From positions 1 through 44,378 of the forward strand of contig JAFGCR010000007.1 in the NCBI GenBank assembly GCA_016932495.1: DNA of 44,378 nt, read 5' to 3'. The position numbers and the translations under genes were made by a program. Source of the DNA: Candidatus Peregrinibacteria bacterium (GTDB lineage: Bacteria > Patescibacteriota > Gracilibacteria > UM-FILTER-43-11). The notes under the pieces were generated by a model. It saw only the letters and a list, made by a program, of their open reading frames with translations. It had not been told where the DNA came from and did no database searches. Below are positions 13,070-33,658 of this stretch, in pieces. Every line of letters begins with the position of its first letter. Positions within the stretch are counted from its first letter, which is position 1.

Positions 13070-15307
13070 CTAGATTAAAGGCTCCTCAAACTCCTTCTCC
13101 ATCTCCGGAGCAACATTGTCCTCATTAAATTCGCCTGCCTCATCCCATTTACTAAGCAGTTTTTCGACTTCTTTTTTTGACCGGCAGTATTTTTTACGGG
13201 ACTGTTTGATGATCTGATCGCTAAAATCTTTATCGGTCGTCGGCACGTCTATTGTGCGGCCGGAAAAGGCTTCACGGACTTCCCCGTTTACGGACATTTT
13301 GGTGTAAAATTCACGCATGCCCAGATTGATGATGTCGCGTTCATTAAAGATCGGCGTGTATTCATTGGCTAATATTCCCGCATCATCCGCGCCCACGCGG
13401 AAGCTGACAATGGAACCCACGTTACCGAATACGGTTTTCTGGACGATGTTGATCAGTTGCCCCATGTACTGATGGGCGATGGTCAGGCTCAGGTGGTATT
13501 TGCGGGCTTCGGAAAGGATTTCGGCAAACGTATCGGTGGCGAAATTCTGGAATTCATCGATGTAGAAATAAAAATCACTGCGTCTTTCCTCGCGCATGTC
13601 CGCGCGCTGCATGGCCGCTTGGTAGATCTTGGTGATGATCATGCCCCCTAAAATCTCTGCATTCTCTTCGCCGAGCAACCCTTTCGACACTTTCATCAGG
13701 AGGATTTTTTTGCTATCCATAATCTCGCGGATGTCGAATTTGCTTTCTGGCTGGCCTACAATGTTACGGATCATATTGGTGGAGACGAGCTGGCCGACTT
13801 TATTAAGTAGCGGGGTAATGGCTTCCGCGTCGAATTTCTCACTCCACGCCGCGAATTCCGACACCCAGAAGTTTTTGACCACCGAATCCTGAATGCGGGA
13901 AATGATCTTCTGGCGGTAATTTTTGTCCGTCAGCATCTTGAGGATGGAAAGGACAGTGGTATTGGGGCTGTCTAAAAGCGCCAGGGTGGTGTAACGGAGC
14001 ACGTGCTCCAGCCGGTCAGACCAGTTGGTGCCGAACAGTTTTTTGAAAATATCGATAAACCCAAGTGTGATCTGCATTTTATACTCATCCCCCACATTCA
14101 TCAGCGGGTTAAAAGCGATAGGGAAATTGACGTCGGATGGGTCAAAAAGCACCACGTCATTCACCCGGTTTTCCGGCACATAACGGAGAACGTTGTCGAT
14201 CAGATCGCCATGCGGGTCCAGTACAGCCACGCCTTCCCCGTCCAGAAAATCCTGACGGATTAAGAGCTCTAAGAATTTAGATTTTCCCGATCCGGATTTA
14301 CCGACCGTATAAAGATGCCGGCGGCGGTCTTCGCGCTTGATACCGAATTCCACAAAATTATTGTGGTAATTGGTAATCCCGAAAAGTGAGATGTCTTTAG
14401 TCCCCTTTTTCGGCAGATCCTGAGGCGGTTCGTGTTTTTTGGCGAGCACATGCACAATATGGGGCACATGGTCAGCATTTGGAAGATGATAAAGGCTGGC
14501 TATCTCTTTCGCGCCTGTCACATGAAATCCCGTAATGGAACGATGGCGGTATGTCTCGGCAAAGTGAGGAGAGGCGGAAATACGGCTTGCCACGAACTCC
14601 TGAATATCAGTTGAATTGAATTGGTAGAAACTATTGACCACCGCATTCAGTTTACGCTTAGCCGTAGGAGTATCTTTGGCAATATACGCGCACCGTACGA
14701 CCATGTCGTAGGGGGGCTCTTTAAATTTTTCCTGCGCTAATTTTGACCGTTTCAGGCGGATCGGCTCCTCGCTTTTGGCCCGGAACCAGTCGCGCACATG
14801 AAACACCTGGCGCCAGCGGGCGAACCGCATATTCCAGCTCCGTTTAAAATGGTAGCCCGCGGTCTCGTTTTTGGGCCGGATCACGATCTGCACCCACACC
14901 TGCTCCCCGGACGCAATCTTAGAGACGACGGAGAAAAGGCCGCTCTGGCTGTCTTCAGTAAACTGTTCGTAGGTTTTAAGGGGGTAAATATCAAAAAACT
15001 TAAAATCCAGCGTCGTGCCGGCAATGCCGTGCTTTTCCGGTTCAAACATGATCGTGTAATCTTTGGTCGGTTTGATCTCAGCATTCGGAAAGGTGGAATA
15101 AATGAGCCCTTGAATCGTTTCCAGCAAGTCATCCGGCACCACGATGTAACAATACGTATATTGCTCATAGCCAAAAAACTCCAGAGAGACCACTTTATCT
15201 TTCACCGTGTTCTGCAGATTCACCAAAACCTGCTGGAACAGGTCTTCCTTTTTCGGATTGGGGGCTTCCCCCTGCGGAACGATGACGTGTAAATAATGAT
15301 ACTTCAT
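13070..15307 (-). CDS. VirD4/HerA-like (type IV secretion / DUF87-type) ATPase
   Basis: RRHLYTVGKSGSGKSKFLELLI Walker A, GVAVLDPHGDLIDNVL, DFYFYIDEFQNFATDTFAEILSEARKY. Confidence 0.85.
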   Translation of the reverse strand: MKYHYLHVIVPQGEAPNPKKEDLFQQVLVNLQNTVKDKVVSLEFFGYEQYTYCYIVVPDDLLETIQGLIYSTFPNAEIKPTKDYTIMFEPEKHGIAGTTLDFKFFDIYPLKTYEQFTEDSQSGLFSVVSKIASGEQVWVQIVIRPKNETAGYHFKRSWNMRFARWRQVFHVRDWFRAKSEEPIRLKRSKLAQEKFKEPPYDMVVRCAYIAKDTPTAKRKLNAVVNSFYQFNSTDIQEFVASRISASPHFAETYRHRSITGFHVTGAKEIASLYHLPNADHVPHIVHVLAKKHEPPQDLPKKGTKDISLFGITNYHNNFVEFGIKREDRRRHLYTVGKSGSGKSKFLELLIRQDFLDGEGVAVLDPHGDLIDNVLRYVPENRVNDVVLFDPSDVNFPIAFNPLMNVGDEYKMQITLGFIDIFKKLFGTNWSDRLEHVLRYTTLALLDSPNTTVLSILKMLTDKNYRQKIISRIQDSVVKNFWVSEFAAWSEKFDAEAITPLLNKVGQLVSTNMIRNIVGQPESKFDIREIMDSKKILLMKVSKGLLGEENAEILGGMIITKIYQAAMQRADMREERRSDFYFYIDEFQNFATDTFAEILSEARKYHLSLTIAHQYMGQLINIVQKTVFGNVGSIVSFRVGADDAGILANEYTPIFNERDIINLGMREFYTKMSVNGEVREAFSGRTIDVPTTDKDFSDQIIKQSRKKYCRSKKEVEKLLSKWDEAGEFNEDNVAPEMEKEFEEPLI

Positions 15308-15402: not shown

Positions 15403-17049
15403 CTATTCCAATGAGTCCTGATAATCTTTTTCGCAATACACGATCCACGGACTGCCGGGTTCGTAGGTGGTTTTAATGTCACGGCCGCATTTGTCGCATT
15501 TCCGGTTATAAATGGCGCGTTTGTTACGAAGGTCAAAACGGTCTTTGTGTCGGCAGAAAAAGCACTTTTTAGGAATCGGCACTCCTTGATCTTTATAAAA
15601 CTTCAGTTCCTGTTCCACAATCTTGTAATTTCGCCCGCACTCCTTGCAGGCCAACAATTCACTACAGATCGACGCATCTGCTGACCGGCTGTCATCCGGC
15701 ACTTGAGCCGTGGCGGGCTGATATTCCTTTTTATCCGGCTCACGCCAGCGGTAGCCAGCTGACAATGCCTCTTCTTTTGTAAGCGGATAGTATTCTTGTG
15801 CAAGGGTTTCGTTATAAGCATAATCTGCATACTCAGCCGGCAAATGCTCTCCCCATTCGCCATCAGCTTTCATTCGCTCAATAATCTGCGGTACTAATTC
15901 TTCGTATTCTTCTTTGGAATATTGTTTATTCAAAATGCAGTACTTTTTTCTTCTAAGCCCAATGCATCCAAAACAATTATTGGAGTAATAGCAATATTGG
16001 CAATAATCCAAATTTGATGATTGGCTTAGGCAATAATCACTAAATCTTATGTTCTGAACATTAAATCCATTTATAGAGCCATCGTATAAAAGCTCTACAC
16101 CGTCACCACATTCATCGCAATCCATACAGTTTTTGGCAGAACCGAAAGACCGATAAAAATATTTGCAATCCCAAAGTTCCATAGAATCAAAACAGTGGTC
16201 AGCATCTTTGGATTGAACCAAATAATCACCTAAAACATTCTCATTCTGGAATCCATGCAAATGCTTCTGGGGATATTTAACTTTAAAATCATTCCAATCT
16301 TTAAAGTACTTCTGCAGTTCTGAATGTTTGGATAAGCTGTTCATTAATTTTTCATATGTTTCTTTATCGTATTGTTTATTGAAAACAAAATATTCCTTGT
16401 TTTTTAAATTGCTGCACATAAAACAGTGTTTACAGCCAATGCAGTTTTTTAAAAATGCACTATTGCTGCAATTATCACAATCCTGCGAATAAAAAAGCTT
16501 GTAACCCCGATAGCAATCTACACATTCATAAGAAAGCTCACACTCTTTGCTGCGAAGGCAATCTGAAGAATTCTTACTCTTATTCAAACCTAAAGAATAA
16601 TAACAATCCCAATTAAAATCCGAATCAAAGATCATGTAACAATTTTTGTTGTAACCGGCATAATTAACGTAATCAGAGTTTTCATTAAACTGTAGTCCTC
16701 CGCAAAGAGATGGTCTTGGAACCGCTTTGGCCAATTCAAACCACTGATCAAAAAACGATCTGTTCAAATCAACATCCCGACCATGTTCAGCATTATCGAC
16801 CTTATCGCTTATCCAGTAATCCTGATGGTAAACCTTTAAAGGAACATCCGGATGATAGTGGGTAATTATATCCTTTCCGGTTCCATCACATTTACGTTTA
16901 TATAAATTGATCTGATTCGAATAAATCAAACGCCGGCGTTGCCGGCATGTAGGGCAAAGCGTGGGTTCCGGGACCTGCATTTGCTTATAAAACTGCCGAT
17001 CCTTATCGGTTATTGTGAAATCGGTGTTGCATTGTTTGCAGTTGGGCAT
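15403..17049 (-). CDS. Cys-rich dual zinc-ribbon/solenoid protein, paralog A
   Basis: MPNCKQCNTDFTITDKDRQFYKQMQVPEPTLCPTCRQRRR ... C-terminal CKECGRNYKI..KKCFFCR..CDKCG; start overlaps B stop (TGATG). Confidence 0.85.
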   Translation of the reverse strand: MPNCKQCNTDFTITDKDRQFYKQMQVPEPTLCPTCRQRRRLIYSNQINLYKRKCDGTGKDIITHYHPDVPLKVYHQDYWISDKVDNAEHGRDVDLNRSFFDQWFELAKAVPRPSLCGGLQFNENSDYVNYAGYNKNCYMIFDSDFNWDCYYSLGLNKSKNSSDCLRSKECELSYECVDCYRGYKLFYSQDCDNCSNSAFLKNCIGCKHCFMCSNLKNKEYFVFNKQYDKETYEKLMNSLSKHSELQKYFKDWNDFKVKYPQKHLHGFQNENVLGDYLVQSKDADHCFDSMELWDCKYFYRSFGSAKNCMDCDECGDGVELLYDGSINGFNVQNIRFSDYCLSQSSNLDYCQYCYYSNNCFGCIGLRRKKYCILNKQYSKEEYEELVPQIIERMKADGEWGEHLPAEYADYAYNETLAQEYYPLTKEEALSAGYRWREPDKKEYQPATAQVPDDSRSADASICSELLACKECGRNYKIVEQELKFYKDQGVPIPKKCFFCRHKDRFDLRNKRAIYNRKCDKCGRDIKTTYEPGSPWIVYCEKDYQDSLE

Positions 17050-18701
17050 CAGTAGACTTCCTTTAAATAACACTGTTCACAGTATACTGTTTCGGGCCGC
17101 TCAGGGGGATAAAAAGTAATGATGGGTTTCTGGCATTTGGCGCACTGGCGGTTGTAGGTTTTTCGCTTATTTCGTTTCTCAAGGCGCTCCCAATGCCGTT
17201 CATCCGGCGTCAGCCGGGGGATAGGAATATTGTTTTCTTTGTAGAACTTCAGTTCCTGGGGGATGATCTTATAAGGCATGCCGGATTTTTCGGACGTAAG
17301 GACCTGGCCGATGATCTCATCACCCACCTCTTTGATGCTGTCCGGGATCTCGTATTTCGGACCTGTATAAGGCTTTTCTTCTTTTTCTTTAAACTTCCAT
17401 CCGTTTTTCAGGATCTCTTCTTTGGTCAGGAAGATCTGTTCATGGGCCAACGTCTCGTTATAAGCGTAAGCAGACATGGCAGCCGGAAAGAATTCACCCC
17501 ATTCACCCGTAGACTTCATATGGTCGATGATTTTAGTTTTCAGGTTTTCATAGTTTTCACGATCGTATTGTTTGTTGAAGATACAGTATTTATTTTTCTT
17601 CAGGCCGACACAGCCGAAACAATCCTTGGAGGAGAAACAATGGTCGCAGCAGGTAAGATCCGCGCACGCTGCCCAGCAGAGATTGCAAAAACGGAGGTTG
17701 TAATTATCGTAACCGCATGCCTGGCATTCATACATTTTTTCGCTGTCCTGGCCCCAATGGCTCCAGTCCATTCCCAGTTTACTGTTTTCAATACACTGGC
17801 AGTAACGAAGGTCTTCGCAGTTATGACATTCAAAACAAAGGTGGCAGTTTTTACATTCGTTCAGGTAATCCCCCAAGGAATTCTGGTTATTGGTACCAAA
17901 ATATTCCTTCACAATGATGCCTTTCGTCAGTTCCGTAAATTTAGCCTTAATTTTTTCAATGACTTTATAACTACCGATATCCACTTCCTTAAAAAACTGT
18001 TCATACTGCTCTTTGGTATAAGGTTCGTTAAAAACATAATACTGTTTGTTGACCAGATTCCAGCAGCCGAAACAATCCATACACCCTGCACAATTGCGGA
18101 GGAAAAAAGAATTTTTACAGTTGTTGCAGTCCCGGCTGTAGCGGAGATTGTAACAGCTGGTGCAGCCCACGCACTCATAACACAGTTCATTATGGAGGCT
18201 GTTTAAGTTGTCGACGCAGTTCTTGGAATAATTGATCCAGGAACCATAGTAACAGTCCTCGCAGTGATTGGTGGAAAACACCAGATAGCAATTCTTATTC
18301 CGGCTGGCCGCGTTGCAGTAATCGCTGTTTTCCATGGGTTGCTGCTGAATGAGCGCCAGACGGGGAACCGCATCCCTCAATTCAAAAAACTGTTCAAAAA
18401 ACGGACGGTTAAAATCAAAATCCCGGCCATATTTCAGCGCGTCATGCTGATCGCTCCACCAGTCATCGTTGCTGTAAACAGGAAAAGGCTTATCTTCTGA
18501 GTAGGTAGATATGACATCCTTCCCCGTCAGGCTGCACGGGCGATGATACAAAAACCGTTCACTGCGGAAACTCATCCGCCGCTGCATACGGCACAGGTAA
18601 CAAAGTGTTGGTTCCGGCACTTCCATCATTTCATAAAACTGCCGGTCCTCATCGGTTACCTCAAATTCTATATTGCAATGTTTACAGGTTTTCATATACA
18701 A
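17049..18701 (-). CDS. Cys-rich dual zinc-ribbon/solenoid protein, paralog B
   Basis: CKHCNIEFEVTDEDRQFYEMMEVPEPTLCYLC; central Cys repeats; C-terminal CAKCQKP...YCEQCYLKEVY; RBS AAGGAGG. Confidence 0.85.
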   Translation of the reverse strand: MYMKTCKHCNIEFEVTDEDRQFYEMMEVPEPTLCYLCRMQRRMSFRSERFLYHRPCSLTGKDVISTYSEDKPFPVYSNDDWWSDQHDALKYGRDFDFNRPFFEQFFELRDAVPRLALIQQQPMENSDYCNAASRNKNCYLVFSTNHCEDCYYGSWINYSKNCVDNLNSLHNELCYECVGCTSCYNLRYSRDCNNCKNSFFLRNCAGCMDCFGCWNLVNKQYYVFNEPYTKEQYEQFFKEVDIGSYKVIEKIKAKFTELTKGIIVKEYFGTNNQNSLGDYLNECKNCHLCFECHNCEDLRYCQCIENSKLGMDWSHWGQDSEKMYECQACGYDNYNLRFCNLCWAACADLTCCDHCFSSKDCFGCVGLKKNKYCIFNKQYDRENYENLKTKIIDHMKSTGEWGEFFPAAMSAYAYNETLAHEQIFLTKEEILKNGWKFKEKEEKPYTGPKYEIPDSIKEVGDEIIGQVLTSEKSGMPYKIIPQELKFYKENNIPIPRLTPDERHWERLEKRNKRKTYNRQCAKCQKPIITFYPPERPETVYCEQCYLKEVY

Positions 18702-18721
18702 TCGGCCTCCTTAGTATCTAA

Positions 18722-19267
18722 ATGAATTTTATGCAAAAAAATGAACCTAAAAGTATTATACCAATAGAACGGATTGAATGCTCCATTTATATCATCCGCG
18801 GCCAGAAAGTAATGCTGGACCGGGATTTGGCAATACTTTATGGGATTGATACTAGAGCATTAGTCCAGGCGGTTAAACGTAATCTGGAACGATTTCCCGC
18901 AGATTTCATGTTTCAATTAACCAGGAGTGAAATGGTAAACTTGATGTCACAAATTGTGATATCAAGCTGGGGTGGGCATCGAAAACCACCTTATGCTTTT
19001 ACCGAACAAGGAGTTGCTATGCTCTCGAGTGTTCTCAGGAGTCCTCAGGCAGTAAAGGTGAATATCGAGATTATGCGCGCTTTTATTAAACTGCGCCAAG
19101 TATTTGCATCCCACAAAGAGCTGGCAAAGGAATTAAAAGAGGTAAAAGAATTTGTATTAAAAAATTCAAATCAGACCAGCCGGGAATTCCGGCGCGTTTG
19201 GCAGGCAATTGAAAAATTAAGTGATAAGCCAAAAGGTCAACGGCAGATCGGCTTTGATCTCGACTAA
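18722..19267 (+). CDS. ORF6N-domain DNA-binding protein, copy 1
   Basis: IYIIRGQKVMLDRDLAILYGIDTRALVQAVKRNLERFPADFMFQLT ... AFTEQGVAMLSSVLRSPQAVKVNIEIMRAFI. Confidence 0.9.
   Translation: MNFMQKNEPKSIIPIERIECSIYIIRGQKVMLDRDLAILYGIDTRALVQAVKRNLERFPADFMFQLTRSEMVNLMSQIVISSWGGHRKPPYAFTEQGVAMLSSVLRSPQAVKVNIEIMRAFIKLRQVFASHKELAKELKEVKEFVLKNSNQTSREFRRVWQAIEKLSDKPKGQRQIGFDLD
18755..18763 (-). promoter_or_regulatory. Extended -10 promoter element for the B-A block
   Basis: Minus-strand TGGTATAAT about 50 nt upstream of B. Confidence 0.45.
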
Positions 19268-20910
19268 TAAACTTCTTTTAGATAACAGGCTTCACAATAT
19301 ACTTTCTCCGGGCGGTCAGGTGAATAAGTGGTTTGGATGGGGGTATCGCATTTTTGGCACTTGCCATCGTAGAGCTTTTTGGGATTTCGAAACATTTTTC
19401 TGAAATCATGGCGTTCTTCTGAATGCAGATGGGGAACGGAAATATGGTTATTCCGATAAAACTTAAGTTCTTGAGGTGTGATCTTAAACAGTCTTTTGGA
19501 GTGCTCACATTCGATCGCCCAGTTCACGATGTCATCCGGCACATCGGCGATGTTGTCGGGAAGTTCATCAGCCCGGACAATCTTGTCGGCTTCCGGCTTA
19601 TGTTCCGGCACGTCCATCCAGTTAAATCCCTGCCGGACCGCTTCTTCCTTTGTCATCGGATAATAATCATGCGCGGTGGTTTCCGGATAACTGAAACAGG
19701 ACATGTTTTTCGGTAAAAACTGGCCCCATTCACCGGTTTTCTTCATATGGTCGATGATTTTAGTTTTCAGGTTTTCATAATCTTCACGATTGTATTGCTT
19801 ATTTAAAATACAATTCCTTTTCCGGTTGATTCCCACACAGCCGAAACAGTCATGGCTGTTAACCGCAATATCGCAATAACGGATGCCCGAAGAATCCATG
19901 GTGAAATAACTAAACATCCCATCGGTTACATCAATGGTGGAAAGGGTGTTATAACAAAGCTGACTGCCATGACCGATCAGACTGCTGTTAAACAGGTCTT
20001 TGGCCTCGTAAGCCACGATGACATTCCGGATGTCTTCGCTATCGGATGTATCGTAACAATTGTGGCAGTTCTTGCTGTTTTTAATATAATCCCCGCTGCA
20101 GTTTTCGCAGTTCAGCATATGGGCGAATTTGACGATCCGGCTTTGGTGTAATGTGAGAAATTTCTGTAACAATGCCTGCTGAGTTTTGTAACTTCCATTC
20201 AGTAATTCTTCTTTCTTTTTCAGATACTCTTCCTTCGTAAGTTCCTGATTTTCAATGCAGTATGATTTATTGGAAAGGTTGGTGCATAAAATACATTCCG
20301 TACAACTGGAACAGTCGGAAATAAAGTAACAATTCTTGCAGTTTTTAGAGTCAAAAGCGAACTGGCATCCGTAACTGCCAATGGTATCACCCAGCATGTA
20401 ACATAATTCGTTCTTGTTACTAAAATCCAGATCCAGACAATTGCGGTTATGCATACACAATGTGCCGTACTGAACGTCTTCGTTGTAGTCCCCGCCAAAA
20501 ACGAGATAGCAGTTCTTGTTGTACACGCACATATTGCAGTAATCACTGTTCTCGCCATGCAGGTTTACCAGAGGCGGACGGGGCACTTTGAGCTGAAGTT
20601 CTTTTAATTGTTCAAAAAACGGGCGGCTGAAATCAAAATCCTGCCCGTATTCCAGCTCATCCCACTGATCTCCATACCAATAGTCGCTTTTATAGACTTT
20701 ATAGGGCTTATCGGGACTGTAAATGGAGACGATTTTTTCGCCGGTCGCGTCACACTCACGCGTATACAAAGACCGTTCATTGCGGAAGCAAAGCCGGTTT
20801 TTCTGGTCACATTCAAAACACATCCCCGTTGGCTCATGGCCGAACTTGTCGTACAGGCGACGTTCTTCGGGGGTGACGTCGAACGATGATTGGCATTGTT
20901 TACATTTCAT
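19264..20910 (-). CDS. Cys-rich dual zinc-ribbon/solenoid protein, paralog C
   Basis: CKQCQSSFDVTPEERRLYDKFGHEPTGMCFECDQKNR ... CQKCDTPIQTTYSPDRPEKVYCEACYLKEVY. Confidence 0.85.
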   Translation of the reverse strand: MKCKQCQSSFDVTPEERRLYDKFGHEPTGMCFECDQKNRLCFRNERSLYTRECDATGEKIVSIYSPDKPYKVYKSDYWYGDQWDELEYGQDFDFSRPFFEQLKELQLKVPRPPLVNLHGENSDYCNMCVYNKNCYLVFGGDYNEDVQYGTLCMHNRNCLDLDFSNKNELCYMLGDTIGSYGCQFAFDSKNCKNCYFISDCSSCTECILCTNLSNKSYCIENQELTKEEYLKKKEELLNGSYKTQQALLQKFLTLHQSRIVKFAHMLNCENCSGDYIKNSKNCHNCYDTSDSEDIRNVIVAYEAKDLFNSSLIGHGSQLCYNTLSTIDVTDGMFSYFTMDSSGIRYCDIAVNSHDCFGCVGINRKRNCILNKQYNREDYENLKTKIIDHMKKTGEWGQFLPKNMSCFSYPETTAHDYYPMTKEEAVRQGFNWMDVPEHKPEADKIVRADELPDNIADVPDDIVNWAIECEHSKRLFKITPQELKFYRNNHISVPHLHSEERHDFRKMFRNPKKLYDGKCQKCDTPIQTTYSPDRPEKVYCEACYLKEVY

Positions 20911-20913
20911 AAT

Positions 20914-21016
20914 TTCGTATTGACTGCGGATCGACTTCGAATGGACTTCGAATGGACTTCGTATTGACCAATGTCTATTCGATTTCTATTCGACGTCTAT
21001 TCGATGTCCATTCGTT
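20914..21016. repeat. Intergenic quasi-palindrome built of ~11-bp tandem units
   Basis: Left arm (TTCGAATGGAC)n, right arm complementary (CTATTCGANGT)n. Confidence 0.75.
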
Positions 21017-22661
21017 AATAGACTTCTTTTAAATAACACTTTTCACACAACACTTTCTCCGGCCTATCCGGCGCGTAGGTGGTCTGGATGGGAGCCTGGC
21101 AGTTAGCGCACTGACGGTCATAAAGCCTGTAAGGATTGCGGAAGTTGATCCGCCTGAAATAACGGCAATTCGGACACAAGTGGGGGATGGGTAAACTATT
21201 CCGCCTGTAAAAATTCAGTTCCTGAGTGATGACCCGATAATTTTTCCCACAGTCTTCGCAGGTCAATGTTTCATCCACAATAGCATCAGGGACTTCTTTG
21301 ATATGATCGGGGATCTCATAGATCTGCGGCTGATAAGCTTTTTTATCTTCATACCATTGCCACCCCTTCTCCAGCACTTGTTCTTTATCCATCGGGCTGA
21401 ATTCTGGCGCCGCACTTTCGTTGTAGGCAAAGAAACTGAGGTTAACCGGAAAAAACTGGCCCCATTCTCCCGTTTTCTTCATATGTTCGATGATCCTGGG
21501 GACCATTTTTTCGTATTCCTCTTTAGAATATTGTTTATTTAAAATGCAGTATTTTTTATGGCGCAGCCCAATGCACCCAAAAAGATATTCACTGTTATGG
21601 CACATTTCACAGTAGCGGAGGTCGCTGACATCGTAACAGACGGAACAGCCTATCAGGAATTTACCGCGGTTGCAGGCATGGCATTCATACTGCTGTTCGC
21701 AATCAAATCCGGATTCATAAACATCGTAACTATCTCTCAGATAACAGCAGTCGTAACTGTAGCGCGCATCCCATGAATCGAAACAACTGAAAGAATTATG
21801 GACGTTTTTGCAATTGTATAAATAATCCCCCGAACAATCCTCACAACTGATCAGTTCAGCAGGTTTGCGGACGGCTTTTTGAATCAGCTCCTGATAGCGG
21901 GTGATGTATTTTTGAAGATTGCTGTAAGAACCGGTGTCATACTGCTTTAAAAATTTCTGATAATCCTCTTTAGAATATTGTTTATTTTCAATACAATACT
22001 GTTTTTGTCTCAGATTCCAGCACATCAAGGAATTTTTGACGCCTTTGCAGTTATAAAGAAAATCAGAATCTGTACTGCCATCCGCCAGATAAATGAATTT
22101 GGAATGGTGTGTGCCAACCGAATAGCAGGACTCATAACACTGATCGCTTTTTTCCAGCTGGTAACAATCAGTCAAATCACGGCAATGGACGATATATTTG
22201 CTGTAATAAATATCTTCCGCAAAGCCGACATCGACACACAGATAACAGTTTTTAGCATGATCGGTATGAGTGGTGTAATCGCTGTTCTCATTCGCCTTGC
22301 CGTAAAGCGAGAGACGCGGCACAACAGCCTGTAATTCCCGGAATTGTTCAAAAAACGGACGGCTGAAATCAAAATCCTTTCCGTATTCCAAAGGATCCCA
22401 TCCGTCCCCCCACCAATAAGACGGTCCATACACCATTGTCTTAATCTCTGGCCGGTACATCGAAACCATTTCTTTTCCTGTTGCGTCACACTTCCGGTGA
22501 TAAAAATTCCGTTCGTTCCGAAAACAGGCGCGCCGTTGCTGTCTGCAATCCGGACAAAGCGTTGGTTCGGGCACGCCGATTTTCTGATAGTGCTTTCTAT
22601 CCTGGTCTGTGACGTCGAATGATGATTGGCATTGTTTGCAGTTTGGCATAGCTTTTTTCAC
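21015..22661 (-). CDS. Cys-rich dual zinc-ribbon/solenoid protein, paralog D
   Basis: MPNCKQCQSSFDVTDQDRKHYQKIGVPEPTLCPDCRQQRR ... CEDCGKNYRV..HLCPNCR..CANCQAP. Confidence 0.85.
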   Translation of the reverse strand: MKKAMPNCKQCQSSFDVTDQDRKHYQKIGVPEPTLCPDCRQQRRACFRNERNFYHRKCDATGKEMVSMYRPEIKTMVYGPSYWWGDGWDPLEYGKDFDFSRPFFEQFRELQAVVPRLSLYGKANENSDYTTHTDHAKNCYLCVDVGFAEDIYYSKYIVHCRDLTDCYQLEKSDQCYESCYSVGTHHSKFIYLADGSTDSDFLYNCKGVKNSLMCWNLRQKQYCIENKQYSKEDYQKFLKQYDTGSYSNLQKYITRYQELIQKAVRKPAELISCEDCSGDYLYNCKNVHNSFSCFDSWDARYSYDCCYLRDSYDVYESGFDCEQQYECHACNRGKFLIGCSVCYDVSDLRYCEMCHNSEYLFGCIGLRHKKYCILNKQYSKEEYEKMVPRIIEHMKKTGEWGQFFPVNLSFFAYNESAAPEFSPMDKEQVLEKGWQWYEDKKAYQPQIYEIPDHIKEVPDAIVDETLTCEDCGKNYRVITQELNFYRRNSLPIPHLCPNCRYFRRINFRNPYRLYDRQCANCQAPIQTTYAPDRPEKVLCEKCYLKEVY

Positions 22662-22665
22662 TTAT

Positions 22666-22697
22666 CTGAAAGTGCGGATAGCTATCCGCACTTTCAG
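22666..22697. repeat. Perfect 32-bp palindrome between paralogs D and E
   Basis: CTGAAAGTGCGGATAGCTATCCGCACTTTCAG. Confidence 0.95.
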
Positions 22698-24364
22698 TAA
22701 ACGGTTTCAAGATAACACTTTTCACACAACATTTTTTCCGGTCTATCCGGCGCGTAGGTGGTCTGGATAGGGGCTTGGCAGCTGGCACACTGGCGGGCGT
22801 AGAGCTTATTCGGATTTTGCAGTTTGAGCCGTTTATGATGACGGACATCCGGATGAAGATGTGGGATGGGAAGTGATTTTTTCCGGTAAAATTTAAGTTC
22901 CTGAGGCTGGATGCGGAACAACCGCCCCGTCTCCTCGCACTCAATGGCCCAATCCAGCACGTCGTCGGGGACGGATTCAATATCATCCGGCAGCTGGCTG
23001 GCTGGGATTTTTTTGGTAACATCAGGGGTTTTTTCTTCAATAGCTTTCCATTTAAAACCTTTTTTAAGGGCCTCTTCTTTTGTAAGCGGATAGTAATCAT
23101 TTGCAAGGCTTTCATTGTAGGTATGAAGCGACAGACTTACAGGCAGATTTTCTCCCCATTCGCCGGTTTTTTTCATATGGTCGATGATTTGCGGTACGAG
23201 TTTTTCGTACTCTTCCTTGCTGTATTGCTTATTTAGGATGCAGTGAGAGAATTTTTTAGAAATACTGTTACAGCCGAACATATACTGGCATTGCCACACG
23301 CAGTAACAGTACATCGTATCCTGCGAGTAAACGGGGCAGAAACAGAAAAGATCGCGCACATTCTGGTCTCCGCCAGTGCCGCATTCGTAACAAAGTTCGT
23401 TCTGTTTATCTAAAATGTCGACGTCCATCATGTCTTTCCCTTCGGCCAGGTCATACACGTAACGGCAATCCTCGCAATTAAAACAATCAAAACCGTGAAA
23501 GACATTTTTGCAATCATACAGACGATCACCCACGCAGTTTTCCGTATTCACCAAGGTGGCTGACCGTTTTGGAAGGGTTTTTATGAATGCCAGGAACTCT
23601 TTCATTAATTCAGACGGGGGCTGTTTTTTGAGTTCGGTGATTTTCTTTTCATATTCCTCTTTTGAGTATTGTTTATTTTTAATGCAATATTCTTTCTGGC
23701 GAAGATCTGAGCACATAAAACAATTTTTGCAGGAATCGCAATAAGCCATGTATTCCGATTCACTTACATTGTTACATTGGATTAAATAATTAGCGTTGTA
23801 ACAGTTTTTGGAATTCAGGGATTCATACACCAACTCGCAATGGTCGCAGATCAGGCAGTCCACGCAATCTTTGCAGTACTGCCCCTTGCGCATATAAAGA
23901 CAGTCTTCCATGCGGTAACTCCCCGGACTCATGTAGGTGTTCCGGCTTAACCCCTGAAGGCTGTTGTATTCACAGTTCTCGCAACGGTAGATCAGCGTGC
24001 CGGATTTCGGGACTTTCATGTTCAGTTCATGAAACTGTTCCGCGAACGGGCGGCTGAAATCAAAATCCTGCCCGTACTTAAGCGGATCCCAGTTATCCGA
24101 CCACCAGCAATCACTGCAGTACACAGGGAAGGGCGCTTCTGCCGGAAAAATGGAAATAAAACTTTTATTGCACAAGTCGCAATTTCTGCGGTACAGACTT
24201 CTTTCATTCCGAAGGGCCAGCCGCCGCTGGCGGCGGCAATCCGGACACAAAGTGGGTTCGGGGATATCAAACGTTTTTCCTCCTATAATCGGAGATAATT
24301 TCTTCAAAAATGCCCGATCCGCGTCGGTTATTTCGAACGATGATGTGCATTGTTTACATCTCAT
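22694..24364 (-). CDS. Cys-rich dual zinc-ribbon/solenoid protein, paralog E
   Basis: CKQCTSSFEITDADRAFLKKL..PEPTLCPDCRRQRR ... CASCQAPIQTTYAPDRPEKMLCEKCYLETVY. Confidence 0.85.
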   Translation of the reverse strand: MRCKQCTSSFEITDADRAFLKKLSPIIGGKTFDIPEPTLCPDCRRQRRLALRNERSLYRRNCDLCNKSFISIFPAEAPFPVYCSDCWWSDNWDPLKYGQDFDFSRPFAEQFHELNMKVPKSGTLIYRCENCEYNSLQGLSRNTYMSPGSYRMEDCLYMRKGQYCKDCVDCLICDHCELVYESLNSKNCYNANYLIQCNNVSESEYMAYCDSCKNCFMCSDLRQKEYCIKNKQYSKEEYEKKITELKKQPPSELMKEFLAFIKTLPKRSATLVNTENCVGDRLYDCKNVFHGFDCFNCEDCRYVYDLAEGKDMMDVDILDKQNELCYECGTGGDQNVRDLFCFCPVYSQDTMYCYCVWQCQYMFGCNSISKKFSHCILNKQYSKEEYEKLVPQIIDHMKKTGEWGENLPVSLSLHTYNESLANDYYPLTKEEALKKGFKWKAIEEKTPDVTKKIPASQLPDDIESVPDDVLDWAIECEETGRLFRIQPQELKFYRKKSLPIPHLHPDVRHHKRLKLQNPNKLYARQCASCQAPIQTTYAPDRPEKMLCEKCYLETVY

Positions 24365-24366
24365 GA

Positions 24367-25884
24367 TTAAGCATTACGAAATCGGATGCGTTCCTGGTAT
24401 CTCATCTCGTGATGAGTTCGGGGAAGGGGGGCATCTATTTTTTTGAGCAGGCGGATCTCCTGTTCAATGATCCTAAAGGGCTTATTGGATTTTTCGCATA
24501 AAAAGGCTGATTCCATTTTACCATCTTCTGCGCTATGGATGTCGTCCGGGAGCTGGGCAACCGATTCGGACGTTCCGCCTTCCGGCTTCTTTTCTTCCCC
24601 ATACCGCCAGCCAATACGTTCCACCTCTTCTTTTGTAAAATGGTCGTAATCCCGGAAAGCGCTGTCCTGATATGTGAAAGGGGCAACGTCAAACGGAAAC
24701 GGATTGCCGTAATAATCCCCCATCGATTCAATGATCCGGGCTTTGAGTTTATGATAGTCGGATTCTGAGTATTGTTTATTTAAAATGCAGAATTTTTTGT
24801 AACGGAGGGAGATACAGCCAAAACAATCATTACAGCCCTGCAGGAATTCCCCGTAACAGCTGTCTTTGGTCGTCCAGCAGCCGACTACATTGTGGCAGTT
24901 ATAGGATTCGGTCGTACTCACATTCCCGTAAATCAGCTGGGAGCCATCCACAATGGCGTGGCTGTCGATGACGTCTTTACAGCCGTTGGCGCCGACCCGG
25001 TAATACAGGCAGTCTTCCGCGTCTTCCACGTCGTAACATTCATGACAGTTTTTGCAGTTGATCAAAAAATTACCATCTGAATTTTCTGTGTTGATCAGGC
25101 GGGTGTAGTCTCCTTTTGAGAGGATATTGTCGACAAATTGTCGTTTAAGTTTTTCGAAGGTTTCATAAGAACCAAAACGGATCTCATCCATTCTTTTTTC
25201 ATATTCCTCTTTGCCCAGCTGTTCATTGTTAACACAGTATTTCTGATTACGGAGACCGGAACACATAAAACAATTCTGACAGCCCCGCAGGTCAAAGCAA
25301 AAGTTACAGTGACTGCAGTTATCCAGCAAAAATCCCATCCGGCAGTGATAGGCCTTCCGGCAATCCACGCACTCAAAACAGAGTTCACTGTCATGCAGGA
25401 AAGCGGAATCGATGCAGTCGCGGCAATTGAATATGCCATGGGTGTAGTAACAATCCTCACACCGGTCTGCCAGAATATGCATGTAACAATTCTTGTTCTT
25501 TTCCGCCGCGTTGCAATAATCGCAGTTTTCATTGTACGGCGCGAAAATATTCACGCGCGGCGCTTTTTTTGACAGCGCTTTGTATTGTTCAAAAAACGGT
25601 TTATCCGGATCGTAATCAAGTTCCGGCGGCGTCCATTTGTCTGATATCCAGTAATCATATTTGTAAACCGGAAAAGGGTGGTCTTCGCTGTAAACGCTGA
25701 TGATCCGCCCTCCTGAAAAATCGCATTTCCGCATATGCAGATTGCGTTCGTTCCGGAGCGCCAGGCGCATGGCCAGGCGGATTTTGGGGCCGTATTTGGG
25801 CTCATTAATGCCCATCTTCTTAAAAAGCGTCCGTTCCATGCCGGAAATTTCGAATTCTGTGTTGGTAAGCTGGCAGGTTGGCAT
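24367..25884 (-). CDS. Cys-rich solenoid protein, paralog F (degenerate N-terminal ribbon, truncated C-terminus)
   Basis: MPTCQLTNTEFEISGMERTLFKKMGINEPKYGPKIRLAMRLALRNERNLHMRKCDFSGG; ends RYQERIRFRNA. Confidence 0.82.
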   Translation of the reverse strand: MPTCQLTNTEFEISGMERTLFKKMGINEPKYGPKIRLAMRLALRNERNLHMRKCDFSGGRIISVYSEDHPFPVYKYDYWISDKWTPPELDYDPDKPFFEQYKALSKKAPRVNIFAPYNENCDYCNAAEKNKNCYMHILADRCEDCYYTHGIFNCRDCIDSAFLHDSELCFECVDCRKAYHCRMGFLLDNCSHCNFCFDLRGCQNCFMCSGLRNQKYCVNNEQLGKEEYEKRMDEIRFGSYETFEKLKRQFVDNILSKGDYTRLINTENSDGNFLINCKNCHECYDVEDAEDCLYYRVGANGCKDVIDSHAIVDGSQLIYGNVSTTESYNCHNVVGCWTTKDSCYGEFLQGCNDCFGCISLRYKKFCILNKQYSESDYHKLKARIIESMGDYYGNPFPFDVAPFTYQDSAFRDYDHFTKEEVERIGWRYGEEKKPEGGTSESVAQLPDDIHSAEDGKMESAFLCEKSNKPFRIIEQEIRLLKKIDAPLPRTHHEMRYQERIRFRNA

Positions 25885-27527
25885 CAGTAAACGGTTGTTA
25901 AGTAACATTTTTCACAATATACCTTTTCGGGGCAATCCGGCGCGTAAGTGGTGCGAATGGGTTTTTGGCAGTTGCCGCATTTGCGGTCATAAAGTTTACG
26001 AGGGTTCTGGTGGGCTACGCGGTCTAAATGACGCTGACGCGGATAACGTTTGGGAACAGGCAGCCCTTTCGTCCGATAGAATTTGAGTTCCTGGGGGATG
26101 ATTTTAAACGGTTTACCCGTCGCTTCGCAAATAATCGCCCAATTCAGAATGTCATCCGGCACTGCTTTGATGTCGTCAGGAAGTTTATCAGCAGAAATCG
26201 TTTTGATGTTTTTGGGAGACGGAACTTCATAATCTGACCAATTCCAGCCTTTTTTTAGCACCTCTTTTTTGTTCATGGGGAAAAATTCCATGGCCTTGGT
26301 CTCGTTATAACCAAAAGCGGACAATTCTACCGGGAAAAATTCGCCATATTCCTCTGTTTTCTTCATATGGTCGATGATTTTTGGGACAAGTTTTTTGTAA
26401 TCGGCTTCTGAATATTTTTTATTAAGGACGCAAAACTGTTCCCGTTTTAAACTCATGCACCCGAAACAATAATGACTGGCATGGCAGTTATCGCAGTAAG
26501 CAGTATTGTCGGACTGATAAACCAGATTGCAGAATTTGGCAAAAGACAGATCCACCCCCGCCTTGCAATCATATAACATCTCACCGCCCCCTATGCGCGT
26601 TACATCGAAACAGTCTTTCAGGGCATGGGAATCATACACATACCTGGCGTCTTCCACGTATTTGATGTTGTACGCATGGCGGGCATTTTTAGAATCAACA
26701 ATATAATTACCTGAACAGTTTTCCGCGTTCGTGAACCAGGATTCCCTTTTGGGGAGTCTGGCTTTTAACGCTTCGAATTTCTCTTTAAATTCCTGAAAAA
26801 ACTTACGGTCGGTTTTAAGTTTTTGGATAGTTTTCATACATTCCTCCTTAGAGGCTGGCTGATTGAGTATATGGTTTTTACGGTTTCGCATGGAAACACA
26901 ACCCACCACCCCTTTACAGCCACGGCAATCAAACGCGAAAAATGATTCAGTGACATTAGAACAAAGTTCCAGATAATTCGATAGCGTGCATTCCTGGCAG
27001 TCCACACACTCGTAACACATTTCCATCCGGCTGCAGAACAGCAGATCCATGCAATCGCGGGAATTAAAAGCCCAGTCGCTGTAATGGACGTCCTCGCTGT
27101 CCACCAAAGAACTGCCCATGTAACAATTGCGGTTCTTGGAACTGTGCACGGTGAATTCCGAATTTTCGCTTTGAGTATTAAAGATCGCAAGCCGCGGGAC
27201 TTTTGCGCGCATTTCCGCGTACTGTTCAAAAAACGGGCGGTTGAAATCAAAATCCTGACCATATTCAAGAGGATCCCATTTGTCCCTCCAGAAACAATCC
27301 GGACATAGAACTTTTAAGGGTTTATCGGGCGAATAGATGGAAACCACAGGCTTCTTGCAGAGATGACAGGCATTTCGGTAATAATTGGAATCATTCCTAA
27401 AAGCGATCCGACGCTGCTGGCGGCAGTCAGGACATAATGCCGGCGGCGGAACATTCATCTTCTCGTGGACCTTTTTATCCGCCTCCGTAAATTCAAAACC
27501 GGTATTGCAGTTTTTACAGTTGGCCAT
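25884..27527 (-). CDS. Cys-rich dual zinc-ribbon/solenoid protein, paralog G
   Basis: MANCKNCNTGFEFTEADKKVHEKMNVPPPALCPDCRQQRR ... CGNCQKPIRTTYAPDCPEKVYCEKCYLTTVY. Confidence 0.85.
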   Translation of the reverse strand: MANCKNCNTGFEFTEADKKVHEKMNVPPPALCPDCRQQRRIAFRNDSNYYRNACHLCKKPVVSIYSPDKPLKVLCPDCFWRDKWDPLEYGQDFDFNRPFFEQYAEMRAKVPRLAIFNTQSENSEFTVHSSKNRNCYMGSSLVDSEDVHYSDWAFNSRDCMDLLFCSRMEMCYECVDCQECTLSNYLELCSNVTESFFAFDCRGCKGVVGCVSMRNRKNHILNQPASKEECMKTIQKLKTDRKFFQEFKEKFEALKARLPKRESWFTNAENCSGNYIVDSKNARHAYNIKYVEDARYVYDSHALKDCFDVTRIGGGEMLYDCKAGVDLSFAKFCNLVYQSDNTAYCDNCHASHYCFGCMSLKREQFCVLNKKYSEADYKKLVPKIIDHMKKTEEYGEFFPVELSAFGYNETKAMEFFPMNKKEVLKKGWNWSDYEVPSPKNIKTISADKLPDDIKAVPDDILNWAIICEATGKPFKIIPQELKFYRTKGLPVPKRYPRQRHLDRVAHQNPRKLYDRKCGNCQKPIRTTYAPDCPEKVYCEKCYLTTVY

Positions 27528-29182
27528 TATTCAGTATGTTTTAAAAAGCATTTTTCACAATAAACTTTTTCCGCCTGTACAGTCGGAAAACTGCTTTTTA
27601 TTTTTGCTCCGCATTGGTCACATTTTATGTCGGATAACTTTCGCGGCCGCCGCCTCTGCATCCTCATGCCAAACCGTACGTCCGGGTGGAAATGGGGAAA
27701 CGGAAGGTTTAGTTTCCGGTAAAAAGCCAGTTCCTGTTTCTGGATTTTGAAAGGCCGGCCGGTTTCTTCGCATTCGATCGCCCAATTCAGCACGTCATCG
27801 GGGATTTCACTGATCGTGTCCGGCAACCGACTCGCCGGAATGGTTTTAGTAACATTTAAGACCTTGTCTTCTTCCTTTTTCCATTTCCACGACCTTTTGC
27901 CGATTTCATCTTTATTCAGCGGATAATATTCATTGGCAATCGTCTCGTTATAGGCGTAAGGGGAAATGTCTGTCGGGAAAAACAAACCCCATTCCCCCGT
28001 TTTCCGCATATGCTCCACGATTTTGGATTTGAGTTCCTCGTATTCGTTTTTCGGATATTGTTTATTCAGAATGCAGTAATTTTTGTGCTGTAAAGAAATA
28101 CACCCGAAACAGCTCTTGGCGGAAAAACAGGTATTGCAGTAAAAAAGGTCATGGTTATGCCAGCAGGAATCACAGGAAAGGCAGTTGAATATGCCGGAAC
28201 AGCCGATGGTCTCGTAGCAGACTTCGCTCCGATCGTAGCCCATGCAGGTCATGTCCATGGAATCATACGTTTCATCGATCTGTACGGCGTAAGCGATGTC
28301 CTCACAATTCGTGCAGTCAAAACAATCACGGACGTTTCTGCAATGGTTCAGATTATCGCCGATGCTGTCTTCGCAATTCACCTGATAAGTGGCACGATGC
28401 GGAAATTGGGTTTTGAATTCCGTTTTAAAAAATGTGCGGGTTTTCTGGAACCCCGGATACGTTTCCAGCTGATATTCCTTCAATTTTTCAAAATAATCCT
28501 CTTTAGAGTATGGCTGGTTTAAAATATGATATTCCTTGTGGTTTAGATTTGAACAAAGCAGGCAGTGTTTACAGCCGATCAGATTGGAGGAAAAAAGGCA
28601 GGACTGACAGCCATCACAGTGTTCCAGATAAACGGACTCATAACTGTTTTTGGTAAAGCTGATCTCGTAACAAAGCTGGCTGTTATACGTGAATAAATAA
28701 TCCAGGCAGTTTTTGTTTTTGGTGGAATAACGGCCGTACATACAGTCTTCTTCATAATGGTTGCCAAAAGTGAGGTAACAGTTTTTATTGGCGAATGAAT
28801 AATTGCAGTAATCGCTGTTTTGAGATTGCTTGTTCACAATGGCCAGCCTTGGGACTTTCAGCATCAGTTCTTCGAATTGGTCAAAAAACGGACGATTGAA
28901 ATCGAATCCTTGGCCGTAATCCAAAGCGTTCCACTTATCTCCCCAAAAACACTCCTGACAGTAAACCGGAAATGGTTTATCAGGAGAATAAATCGAAACA
29001 ATATCTTTGCTACACAAATCGCATTTTCGTTTATGTAATGTCTTTTCATTCCGCCACGACATCCGTCGCTGATTGCGGCAGTCCGGACACAAAATCGGCT
29101 CGGGAACATCTATTTTTTTATAAAAATCCCGATCCGTATCGGTTATATCGAAGCCTGTGTTGCACTGCTTACAGTTTTTCAT
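27527..29182 (-). CDS. Cys-rich dual zinc-ribbon/solenoid protein, paralog H
   Basis: MKNCKQCNTGFDITDTDRDFYKKIDVPEPILCPDCRNQRR ... CDQCGAKIKSSFPTVQAEKVYCEKCFLKHTE. Confidence 0.85.
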   Translation of the reverse strand: MKNCKQCNTGFDITDTDRDFYKKIDVPEPILCPDCRNQRRMSWRNEKTLHKRKCDLCSKDIVSIYSPDKPFPVYCQECFWGDKWNALDYGQGFDFNRPFFDQFEELMLKVPRLAIVNKQSQNSDYCNYSFANKNCYLTFGNHYEEDCMYGRYSTKNKNCLDYLFTYNSQLCYEISFTKNSYESVYLEHCDGCQSCLFSSNLIGCKHCLLCSNLNHKEYHILNQPYSKEDYFEKLKEYQLETYPGFQKTRTFFKTEFKTQFPHRATYQVNCEDSIGDNLNHCRNVRDCFDCTNCEDIAYAVQIDETYDSMDMTCMGYDRSEVCYETIGCSGIFNCLSCDSCWHNHDLFYCNTCFSAKSCFGCISLQHKNYCILNKQYPKNEYEELKSKIVEHMRKTGEWGLFFPTDISPYAYNETIANEYYPLNKDEIGKRSWKWKKEEDKVLNVTKTIPASRLPDTISEIPDDVLNWAIECEETGRPFKIQKQELAFYRKLNLPFPHFHPDVRFGMRMQRRRPRKLSDIKCDQCGAKIKSSFPTVQAEKVYCEKCFLKHTE

Positions 29183-29208
29183 ATATAATCCGTTTCCGTA
29201 GTATTTAA

Positions 29209-29754
29209 ATGAATTTTATGAAAAAAGATGAATCTATTATACCATCAAAGTATGTTGAGCGCTCCATTTATATCATACGTGGTCAGAAAGTGATTCTGGA
29301 TCAGGATCTGGCGGCGCTTTATGGAGTGGAAACTAAAGCTCTTAACCAAGCTGTTCAACGGAATACGAATCGTTTTCCCGAAGATTTTGCCTTTCGGTTA
29401 GCGAAAGATGAATGGAATTCTTTGAGGTCACAATTTGTTACCTCAAACGTCGGAAGAGGTGGAAGACGATATTTACCTTTAGTTTTTACTGAGCACGGGG
29501 TTGTAATGGCAGCCAATGTTTTAAAAAGTAAACGAGCGATATCGGTAAGTATTGATGTTGTGCGTACTTTTATTAAATTGCGCGAAACACTCGCGTCACA
29601 TAAAGAACTGATAAAAGAGCTGGGCGAACTAAAGGAATTTGTATTAAAAAATTCTCATCAGACCAGCCGTGAATTCCGGCGCATTTGGCAGACCATTGAA
29701 AAACTGACCAACAAACCGAAAAATCAGCGGTCAATTGGCTTTAAGCTAGAGTAA
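29209..29754 (+). CDS. ORF6N-domain DNA-binding protein, copy 2
   Basis: IYIIRGQKVILDQDLAALYGVETKALNQAVQRNTNRFPEDFAFRL ... LVFTEHGVVMAANVLKSKRAISVSIDVVRTFI. Confidence 0.9.
   Translation: MNFMKKDESIIPSKYVERSIYIIRGQKVILDQDLAALYGVETKALNQAVQRNTNRFPEDFAFRLAKDEWNSLRSQFVTSNVGRGGRRYLPLVFTEHGVVMAANVLKSKRAISVSIDVVRTFIKLRETLASHKELIKELGELKEFVLKNSHQTSREFRRIWQTIEKLTNKPKNQRSIGFKLE
29236..29244 (-). promoter_or_regulatory. Extended -10 promoter element for the H-to-C block
   Basis: Minus-strand TGGTATAAT inside the ORF6N 5' end, same position as in copy 1. Confidence 0.45.
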
Positions 29755-29757
29755 TGG

Positions 29758-29832
29758 TGGTGACCCCGACAGGAATCGAACCTGTATCTAAGCCTTAGGA
29801 GTGCCTTGTTCTATCCATTGAACTACGGGGTC
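29758..29832 (-). tRNA. tRNA-Arg (anticodon CCT), CCA encoded
   Basis: GACCCCG TA GTTC..GAAC A AGGCA-CTCCTAA-GGCTT ... ACAGG-TTCGATT-CCTGT CGGGGTC A CCA. Confidence 0.9.
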
Positions 29833-30710: not shown

Positions 30711-30774
30711 AACGAAATGACGCTGTGACGAAATGGCAGATTGCTTTGCCATCTCGTTATGTCGTCATTTCGTT
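30711..30774. repeat. Intergenic quasi-palindrome
   Basis: AACGAAATGACG...TGACGAAATGGCA..TTGCCATcTCG..CGTCATTTCGTT. Confidence 0.75.
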
Positions 30775-31819: not shown

Positions 31820-31857
31820 TGTAATTGATTAAAAATTGAAAATTAAAAATTGAAAAT

Positions 31858-32910: not shown

Positions 32911-32916
32911 TTTTAT

Positions 32917-32987
32917 GTTCGTGATTCGTGTCTTGTGCCTTGTGACTCGTGAGTTTACCGGACACGAGACACTGGACACGAGACACT
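32917..32987. repeat. Intergenic quasi-palindrome of 'GTGTCTCGTG'-type units
   Basis: GTGTCTTGTGCCTTGTGACTCGTG ... CACGAGACACTGGACACGAGACAC. Confidence 0.7.
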
Positions 32988-32998
32988 ATTTTAAATAT

Positions 32999-33598
32999 TT
33001 ATTTTTCAATGATAAGAGCCGGACTATTCGGCTTTTTAAGAAGGTTATAGGGTTTTCCTTCGATGATACTGTTCGCAGAAGCGTGTCCGCTCAGATCATC
33101 CTGATAGTCATACACATCGATCATGGTGGCGCCCTCCCCCCTCACATCGAACACGACTTCGGCCACTTTGATGGTCTTATCGGTCAGCGGATCGGGATTG
33201 GCGCGTCCGAGCATCATCAGACCATTTTCGTTATCGAATGTATTGTTGTAAGGGGCGATGAGTGAAAAAGCGGAATCATCGGTTTTAATCTCCTTCCCGT
33301 AGAGCCGATTCGGGTCAAAACTAAGCCAGCTCTGCACCGACGTGATGGGTTTGCCCTCCGGATTGTTGAGATTAATGGTGACGGTGACCTGCCCTTCCTC
33401 CCGCTCGGCTTTGAACGCCAGGTTAACGCTTTTCTGCGCGGCGCGGGCTTTTTCAGCCAGTTTCTCGACATTGATTTTAGGGGCGGGCGGCTGAGTGGCT
33501 TCAGAAGCTTTTTCCTGCGGGAGCAAAGCACATCCGTTCAGCAGGCTGGAAAGGGTGAGGATAAGCGCGGTGGCGATGAGAATATCTTTGGCTTTCAT
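32999..33598 (-). CDS. Cohesin-like lipoprotein
   Basis: LTLSSLLNGCALL lipobox; VTINLNNPEGKPITSVQSWLSFDPNRLYG; similar to the adjacent cohesin-FnIII gene product. Confidence 0.75.
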   Translation of the reverse strand: MKAKDILIATALILTLSSLLNGCALLPQEKASEATQPPAPKINVEKLAEKARAAQKSVNLAFKAEREEGQVTVTINLNNPEGKPITSVQSWLSFDPNRLYGKEIKTDDSAFSLIAPYNNTFDNENGLMMLGRANPDPLTDKTIKVAEVVFDVRGEGATMIDVYDYQDDLSGHASANSIIEGKPYNLLKKPNSPALIIEK

Positions 33599-33628
33599 GA
33601 TAAGGAGTTAGTGGTTATAGATTGGTGT

Positions 33629-33654
33629 GTGCGGATAACTATCCGCACTTTCAG
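33629..33654. repeat. Second copy of GTGCGGATA-rACTATCCGCACTTTCAG palindrome
   Basis: gtgcggataactatccgcactttcag matches the 22666-22697 palindrome at 25/26 positions. Confidence 0.85.
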
Positions 33655-33658
33655 AGAG

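Follow-up and report, generated by a model that had tools for sequence, protein, structure and literature searches.

Organization of the array locus

This work concerns a tandem array of genes encoding large cysteine-rich proteins, and the ATPase gene that adjoins it, on a contig of a Candidatus Peregrinibacteria bacterium (JAFGCR010000007.1; the whole stretch of 44,378 nucleotides is hereafter called the window) whose genome amounts to 1.18 Mb. Eight array genes lie on the minus strand between positions 15403 and 29182. They encode proteins of 505-556 residues sharing 32-45% pairwise identity (best starts chosen), and none of them contains any stop or frameshift. The initial annotation of this stretch had described eight consecutive genes on one strand; their coordinates and strand hold, but a plus-strand ORF6N gene (18722-19267) lies between genes 2 and 3 and splits the block into two sub-operons, transcribed in the order 8-7-6-5-4-3, then 2-1-ATPase. 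Single-base overlaps link genes 8/7, 7/6 and 2/1. That annotation had not remarked the adjoining dedicated ATPase, the regulators or the insertion locus. The features of the locus are the following:

9524-10102, plus strand: lexA-like gene, which borders the variable region on its other side (empty-site comparison)
13070-15307, minus strand: dedicated VirB4/VirD4/HerA-type ATPase, 745 residues, final gene of the block, directly downstream of the array
15403-17049, minus strand: array gene 1, 548 residues, 37 cysteines; its start overlaps the gene 2 stop by 1 base
17049-18695, minus strand: array gene 2, 548 residues, 42 cysteines; heads the second sub-operon and is transcribed away from ORF6N gene a
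18722-19267, plus strand: ORF6N-domain regulator a, 181 residues, divergent from gene 2 and convergent with gene 3 (Pfam ORF6N, E 6.8e-34)
19264-20910, minus strand: array gene 3, 548 residues
21015-22649, minus strand: array gene 4, 544 residues
22694-24364, minus strand: array gene 5, 556 residues; orthologue in the sister species G001, 87% identical
24367-25884, minus strand: array gene 6, 505 residues; C-terminal clef without its second half; G001 orthologue 88% identical
25884-27527, minus strand: array gene 7, 547 residues; overlaps genes 6 and 8 by 1 base each
27527-29182, minus strand: array gene 8, 551 residues, modelled with AlphaFold2
28937-29182, minus strand: gene 8 N-terminal double treble-clef module, residues 1-82 (Pfam zf_Tbcl)
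28505-28828, minus strand: gene 8 solenoid 1, residues 119-226, cysteine-lined 12-residue coils
28052-28390, minus strand: gene 8 solenoid 2, residues 265-377
27530-27796, minus strand: gene 8 C-terminal double treble-clef module, residues 463-551 (Pfam zf_Tbcl_2)
29209-29754, plus strand: ORF6N-domain regulator b, 181 residues, divergent from gene 8 with a 26-base spacer (Pfam ORF6N, E 2.5e-34)
29758-29832, minus strand: tRNA-Arg(CCT), block border

Architecture and predicted fold of the array proteins

All array proteins follow the order clef, solenoid, linker, solenoid, helical segment, clef. Profile comparison with hhalign related the N-terminal module to the C-terminal one (probability 99.8, E 2.7e-27) and solenoid 1 to solenoid 2 (probability 99.9, E 5.6e-30), and a control comparison of clef with solenoid gave no relation (E 0.94). 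Both internal duplications, which had been proposed as a duplication flanked by homologous ribbons, are thus confirmed at the level of sequence profiles. The AlphaFold2 model of the gene 8 product, computed from an alignment of 136 sequences, is ordered (mean predicted local distance difference test, pLDDT, 91; predicted template modelling score, pTM, 0.91). It bears out the expectation of ordered ribbon and solenoid modules, as do the Pfam treble clefs found at both ends. The curated cutoffs were reached at protein ends only, by genes 1 and 4 for PF13451 (zf_Tbcl; 33.9 and 30.9 bits, cutoff 24) and by gene 8 for PF23477 (zf_Tbcl_2; 27.5 bits, cutoff 27), the remaining members in the window being below cutoff. 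No characterized family covers the whole protein, as had been supposed: Pfam, NCBIfam, PHROGs and PADLOC match only the end domains or match weakly, and Foldseek found no structure in the PDB or among viral models (BFVD) at E<=0.001 for the array-protein model. Foldseek matches to beta-helix acyltransferases have a template modelling score of about 0.1 and were discarded as noise.

The C-terminal module had been described as a repeat of the N-terminal one. The two are homologous but unequal, with complementary losses of cysteine sites: site 1 (C4, C7, C32, C35) is retained in the N-terminal module, where site 2 is mostly gone, and site 2 (C521, C524, C542, C545) is retained in the C-terminal module, where site 1 is mostly gone. 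Stand-alone double clefs of about 100 residues, found in other Patescibacteria genomes, retain both sites. Gene 6 has only half a C-terminal clef, lacking the last ~39 residues. Since its G001 orthologue shares this truncation, it was inherited and is not a recent break. Given this shared truncation and the purifying selection on the genes shared with G001 (see below), the possibility that gene 6 is a pseudogene was rejected.

The array proteins contain about 38 cysteines each (6.8%), and the motif CxxCxxCxxC is present in 102 of 136 members. The treble clefs carry a conserved arginine-rich stretch, the solenoids have a net negative charge (-6 to -13), and a sequence scan detected neither a signal peptide (no Sec) nor a membrane segment. 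In solenoid 1, one of the three phases has cysteine at 39% of its positions and the other two at 0.4-0.5%, a phasing that is individually significant in seven of the eight window proteins (p about 5e-5). The autocorrelation of cysteines in solenoid 1 has peaks at 3 and 12; the less regular solenoid 2 has both of these and a third at 9. Strands of the AlphaFold2 model are spaced by 12. Judged by cysteine and strand spacing, the coil geometry can be read as that of the insect antifreeze beta-helices, which would be a likeness of geometry and not homology.

A dedicated ATPase accompanies the arrays

The ATPase encoded at the end of the block matches Pfam T4SS-DNA_transf. Its model (pLDDT 84) retrieved with Foldseek the VirB4 protein TrwK (E 2.8e-16), HerA (E 1.2e-12) and also TrwB; over the full length, the top structural match is VirB4 rather than HerA. 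Among 58 relatives, with a dedicated orthologue defined by a score above 700 bits and a strong array match by a best E below 1e-100, 27 of the 30 array-bearing genomes and none of the 28 others encode a dedicated orthologue (Fisher p 1.6e-13, ignoring shared ancestry). The contrast between genomes with and without arrays is repeated within families f1, f5, f6, f15, f16 and f18 (in genus g9, for instance, between G009 and G015/G017), and the association is therefore not the effect of one clade. In an evenly drawn sample of the phylum, 18 genomes of the class of the window have both array and ATPase and eight have neither, without exception; three genomes of other classes (G070, G322, G242) also have both array-type genes and ATPase.

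Every genome additionally has generic paralogues of this ATPase. An array gene lies within 1.5 kb of 35 of the 41 dedicated ATPases (four of the other six are on short contig pieces) versus none of the 32 generic paralogues, so that generic VirD4 paralogues were rejected as equal partners. The ATPase gene is on the same strand as the array and downstream of it in 27 of 32 loci.

Other layouts were also found. In G242 and G171, clef gene and solenoid gene are separate neighbours within the ATPase block. The G242 operon (C19; L136/L191) encodes successively a double clef (98 residues), a solenoid dimer (301 residues), a sigma-region-4-like protein with a helix-turn-helix and the ATPase; it is possibly the ancestral layout, with an additional transcription factor. 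In G120 (L190, C1:787500-795500) and G238 (L189, C1:114500-122500), a single solenoid gene immediately follows the gene of a very divergent VirD4-like ATPase, overlapping it or a few bp apart, and this pairing may predate the arrays.

Distribution of the arrays

An array match was found in 38 of the 58 relatives, a single genome having as many as 27 copies, and the solenoid is carried by 25 of the 287 genomes of the phylum sample. Named relatives of the array proteins come mostly from Candidatus Peregrinibacteria, Peribacteria and Gracilibacteria. Outside the class of the window we found full arrays (G070, G211, G322), separate modules (G242), fragments (G313) and solenoids only (G120, G238). 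The array exists in a recoded lineage too: in G056 (C18), an array gene and an adjacent divergent ATPase gene belong to a genome whose frames read through many TGA codons (18-30 per gene). As for a phage origin, tblastn of gene 2 against 50,697 phage records gave no match. The sole match on a viral contig (L105, 5817-5966, from IMG/VR) is a fragment at the contig end that may be host DNA. Our literature search found no paper describing the array or an array-ATPase system.

Array evolution and insertion site

The initial annotation had attributed the diversity of the array to tandem duplication. As a recent process this does not hold. For 183 of the 188 array genes in the typing set, which was drawn from genomes with at least three sampled copies, the nearest relative belongs to a different genome. 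Array-mates are not closer to each other than to genes of other genomes, and recent tandem amplification was rejected; by these sequence comparisons, they are old paralogues. With a type defined by at least 55% identity, the sampled contig pieces yielded 123 types, of which 37 occur in at least two genomes and none includes two genes of one sampled genome.

The sister species G001 has an ATPase 96% identical to that of the window, but only array genes 5 (87%) and 6 (88%) are common to both; its other two array genes share at most 48% identity with any window gene. The ratio of nonsynonymous to synonymous substitution rates (dN/dS) is 0.05-0.06 in the shared genes, with the caveat that dS is saturated, and these orthologues are apparently under purifying selection. 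The distance from lexA to tRNA-Arg(CCT) is 19.7 kb in the window and about 10.9 kb in G001, compared with 75 bp in G009, 595 bp in G005 and 1491 bp in G002, three relatives that have no array. These short gaps without array indicate that, in this family, array and ATPase were gained or lost together at a fixed site; in other families, arrays are found at other sites. A lipoprotein gene (12383) was first considered to delimit the empty site at its far end. Its likeness was due to the signal peptide only, and lexA was taken instead.

The solenoid as type-specific module

Outward solenoid positions and clefs diverge differently depending on the pairs compared. Between orthologue-like pairs, outward solenoid positions are less diverged than clefs in 40 of 45 independent pairs (p 8e-8), whereas between array-mates they are more diverged than clefs in 77 of 86 pairs (p 1e-14). 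Pairwise realignment, used as a guard against misaligned repeats, gave 37/45 and 84/86, respectively. By these alignments, it is the solenoid that distinguishes one type from another and stays constant among members of a type, and the opposite patterns of constraint suggest a signature of type-specific recognition modules. This pattern argues against both a plain thiol store and antigenic variation.

Regulators and neighbouring genes

TrmB-like genes were found next to arrays at 33 loci, with a divergent orientation in 30 of 46 cases; ORF6N genes adjoin arrays at nine loci. In the window, the two spacers between ORF6N and array genes (18696-18721 and 29183-29208) are both 26 bases long, resemble each other and separate divergent genes; the spacer at 29183 includes a TATAAT-like box and the one at 18696 an AAGGAGG ribosome site. 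ORF6N regulator a also matches anti-repressor PHROGs and the PADLOC candidate PDC-S05. From this arrangement we infer that local regulators control segments of the array. No defence genes were found among the recurrent neighbours of arrays. Further away in the window, genes encoding cohesin, Big_5, dockerin-like and TSP_3 domain proteins lie beside a YidC-like gene (30773-42907), and this cluster likely specifies a cell-surface complex. A sodium:neurotransmitter symporter gene (10623-12299) and a Na+/H+ antiporter gene (7835-9013) lie near the block, and relatives of the symporter adjoin arrays in two other loci (L052 and L079).

A proposed two-part system and its alternatives

The near-constant pairing of array and ATPase points to a machine not described before, whose recognition parts would be numerous and interchangeable. 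With a confidence a little short of even, we favour a two-part system in which one coupling-type ATPase would serve client-specific, interchangeable clef-solenoid-clef carriers that dock through their clefs. The starting observations are the modules, their association with the ATPase, the specificity pattern and the mobility of the block. Each array protein would be a client-specific adaptor or cargo carrier: (i) its paired, cysteine-lined 12-residue beta-solenoids would bind a type-specific partner, (ii) its treble-clef modules, as the shared part, would most likely serve for docking to the ATPase or for assembly, and (iii) the ATPase, acting on array proteins or their clients, would remodel or translocate the bound client in an ATP-driven step. 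Local ORF6N or TrmB-type regulators may govern subsets of the array, and the block would acquire and lose member genes at its chromosomal site beside tRNA-Arg. We propose more tentatively that the system combines an orphan coupling-type ATPase and a swappable library of dozens of client-specific cysteine-lined solenoids, with one gene per type per genome and types common across genomes. Of the roles suggested at the outset, scaffold or binding protein, binding is supported as the likeliest.

Several points weigh against the two-part system. The ATPase sequence has no transmembrane or hydrophobic segment (maxKD19 1.17) and no virB-type gene was found beside it or in the window, so that "coupling" in the sense of type IV secretion systems (T4SSs) is not established. 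Three of the 30 array-bearing relatives (G004, G038, G056) have no recognizable ATPase orthologue. A physical interaction between array proteins and ATPase is proposed from gene association, the type counts come from contig pieces and not from complete genomes, and variable coil numbers could partly account for the greater divergence of solenoids between paralogues.

As for the end point, secretion to a host cell is the leading sub-question and a nucleic-acid role within the cell the main alternative. The array proteins could themselves be effectors or surface-delivered cargo, sent by the ATPase to a host bacterium via the Patescibacteria T4SS, with clefs as signal and solenoids as payload. 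We consider this unlikely, if not negligibly so. The ATPase is VirB4/VirD4-like, a TraG/VirB4-like P-loop protein is encoded elsewhere in the genome, the absence of a Sec signal peptide is what T4SS cargo would show and gene content differs between sister species; furthermore, a relaxase-poor T4SS is reported across Patescibacteria, with thousands of VirD4 homologues away from virB4 (PMC12102498). However, no virB genes lie beside the array, few or no VirB6 homologues are reported from Microgenomatia and Gracilibacteria (PMC12102498), the low dN/dS of orthologues (about 0.05) reveals no diversifying selection, and keeping a different cysteine site at each end would be odd for a plain signal. 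The block could instead be a DNA or RNA machine, in which the ATPase would pump nucleic acids like HerA and be guided by array proteins as its sequence- or structure-specific readers, e.g. in defence, DNA uptake or genome maintenance. HerA is indeed among the top structural matches of the ATPase, PADLOC gives weak HerA/mad8 matches besides the ORF6N candidates PDC-S05, the clefs have their arginine-rich stretch and the repertoire turns over at a tRNA-bordered site. This is nevertheless distinctly unlikely, as the block has no nuclease or other effector, the solenoids are acidic and recurrent neighbours include no defence genes.

Two further explanations are far less probable. The cysteine content, the treble clefs and the frequent CxxCxxCxxC motif would suit proteins buffering zinc, iron or redox stress, with copy number setting capacity, but a store of this kind would hardly conserve outward non-cysteine solenoid residues by type, keep a single gene per type and have a dedicated ATPase; we regard it as very improbable. 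A surface variation locus, in which expansion and shuffling would yield variable antigen- or adhesin-like coats, has the lowest standing of all and is already disfavoured by the constraint pattern. It would fit the differing content of sister species despite nearly identical ATPases, the nearby cohesin, dockerin and TSP_3 surface genes and the existence of other large cysteine-rich extracellular proteins in Peribacteria (PMC4736985). It does not fit the lack of signal peptide or membrane segment, the lack of recent duplicates, or the solenoid being the most conserved part between orthologues.

Relation to known systems and significance

The end modules of the array proteins are the same double treble clef as in zf_Tbcl (PF13451), zf_Tbcl_2 (PF23477) and the small CxxC-x17-CxxC proteins of TIGR04272. 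Proteins of the zf_Tbcl type are single and small, whereas here two clef copies, each deprived of a complementary cysteine site, cap a duplicated solenoid. The coils of beetle antifreeze proteins span 12 residues, of which those at positions 2, 5, 8 and 11 point inward, many of these being cysteines (PMC8038014). At E<=10 no more than three PDB chains were listed, among them the hyperactive antifreeze protein TmAFP (1EZG), with a non-significant E of 3.7. The array solenoid resembles it by its 12-residue coils and its inward-type position every third residue, often a cysteine, but lacks the TxT ice-binding ladder and a signal peptide and is duplicated and clef-capped; homology is not claimed. 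The cysteine-rich proteins reported from Peribacteria (PMC4736985) are longer and mostly exported, and were rejected as members of the same family. Similar cysteine-repeat segments occur in phrog_15341 (E 4.7e-5 to 2.6e-3). Campylobacter phage CPt10 (L224, 138920-139345) encodes a cysteine-rich hypothetical protein annotated with insect-antifreeze repeats and weakly solenoid-like. Unlike the array proteins, it is short, without clefs and without any VirD4-like ATPase annotated beside it; we assert no kinship between it and phrog_15341.

The ATPase shares its fold with the T4SS coupling ATPases (VirD4/TrwB, VirB4/TrwK), and in the DotL-type coupling complex of Legionella one motor serves several accessory proteins. 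The array system differs by its lack of membrane segment and virB neighbours, by partners unrelated to known adaptors and by its variable repertoire. Like HerA, a hexameric translocase of the same superfamily, the ATPase is probably soluble, but it has no NurA or other nuclease partner. HerA-type defence systems associate the ATPase with a nuclease or SIR2-like effector; no effector was found in the block, where PADLOC matches to HerA/mad8 are only weak.

A survey of 2,918 Patescibacteria genomes counted 5,713 VirD4 homologues, of which only 148 lie near virB4; the role of the rest is not stated, and those away from virB4 may be exapted (PMC12102498). The array offers a specific, testable partner for one such VirD4-like subfamily. 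This partner is itself new, with a confidently predicted solenoid and clef architecture, no PDB match and up to 27 copies in a reduced genome of ~1 Mb, and identifying one client would open up the rest. If the proposal is true, it would explain why some VirD4-like ATPases of Patescibacteria lie away from virB4, and it would provide these episymbiotic bacteria with a modular means to handle or deliver many partners.

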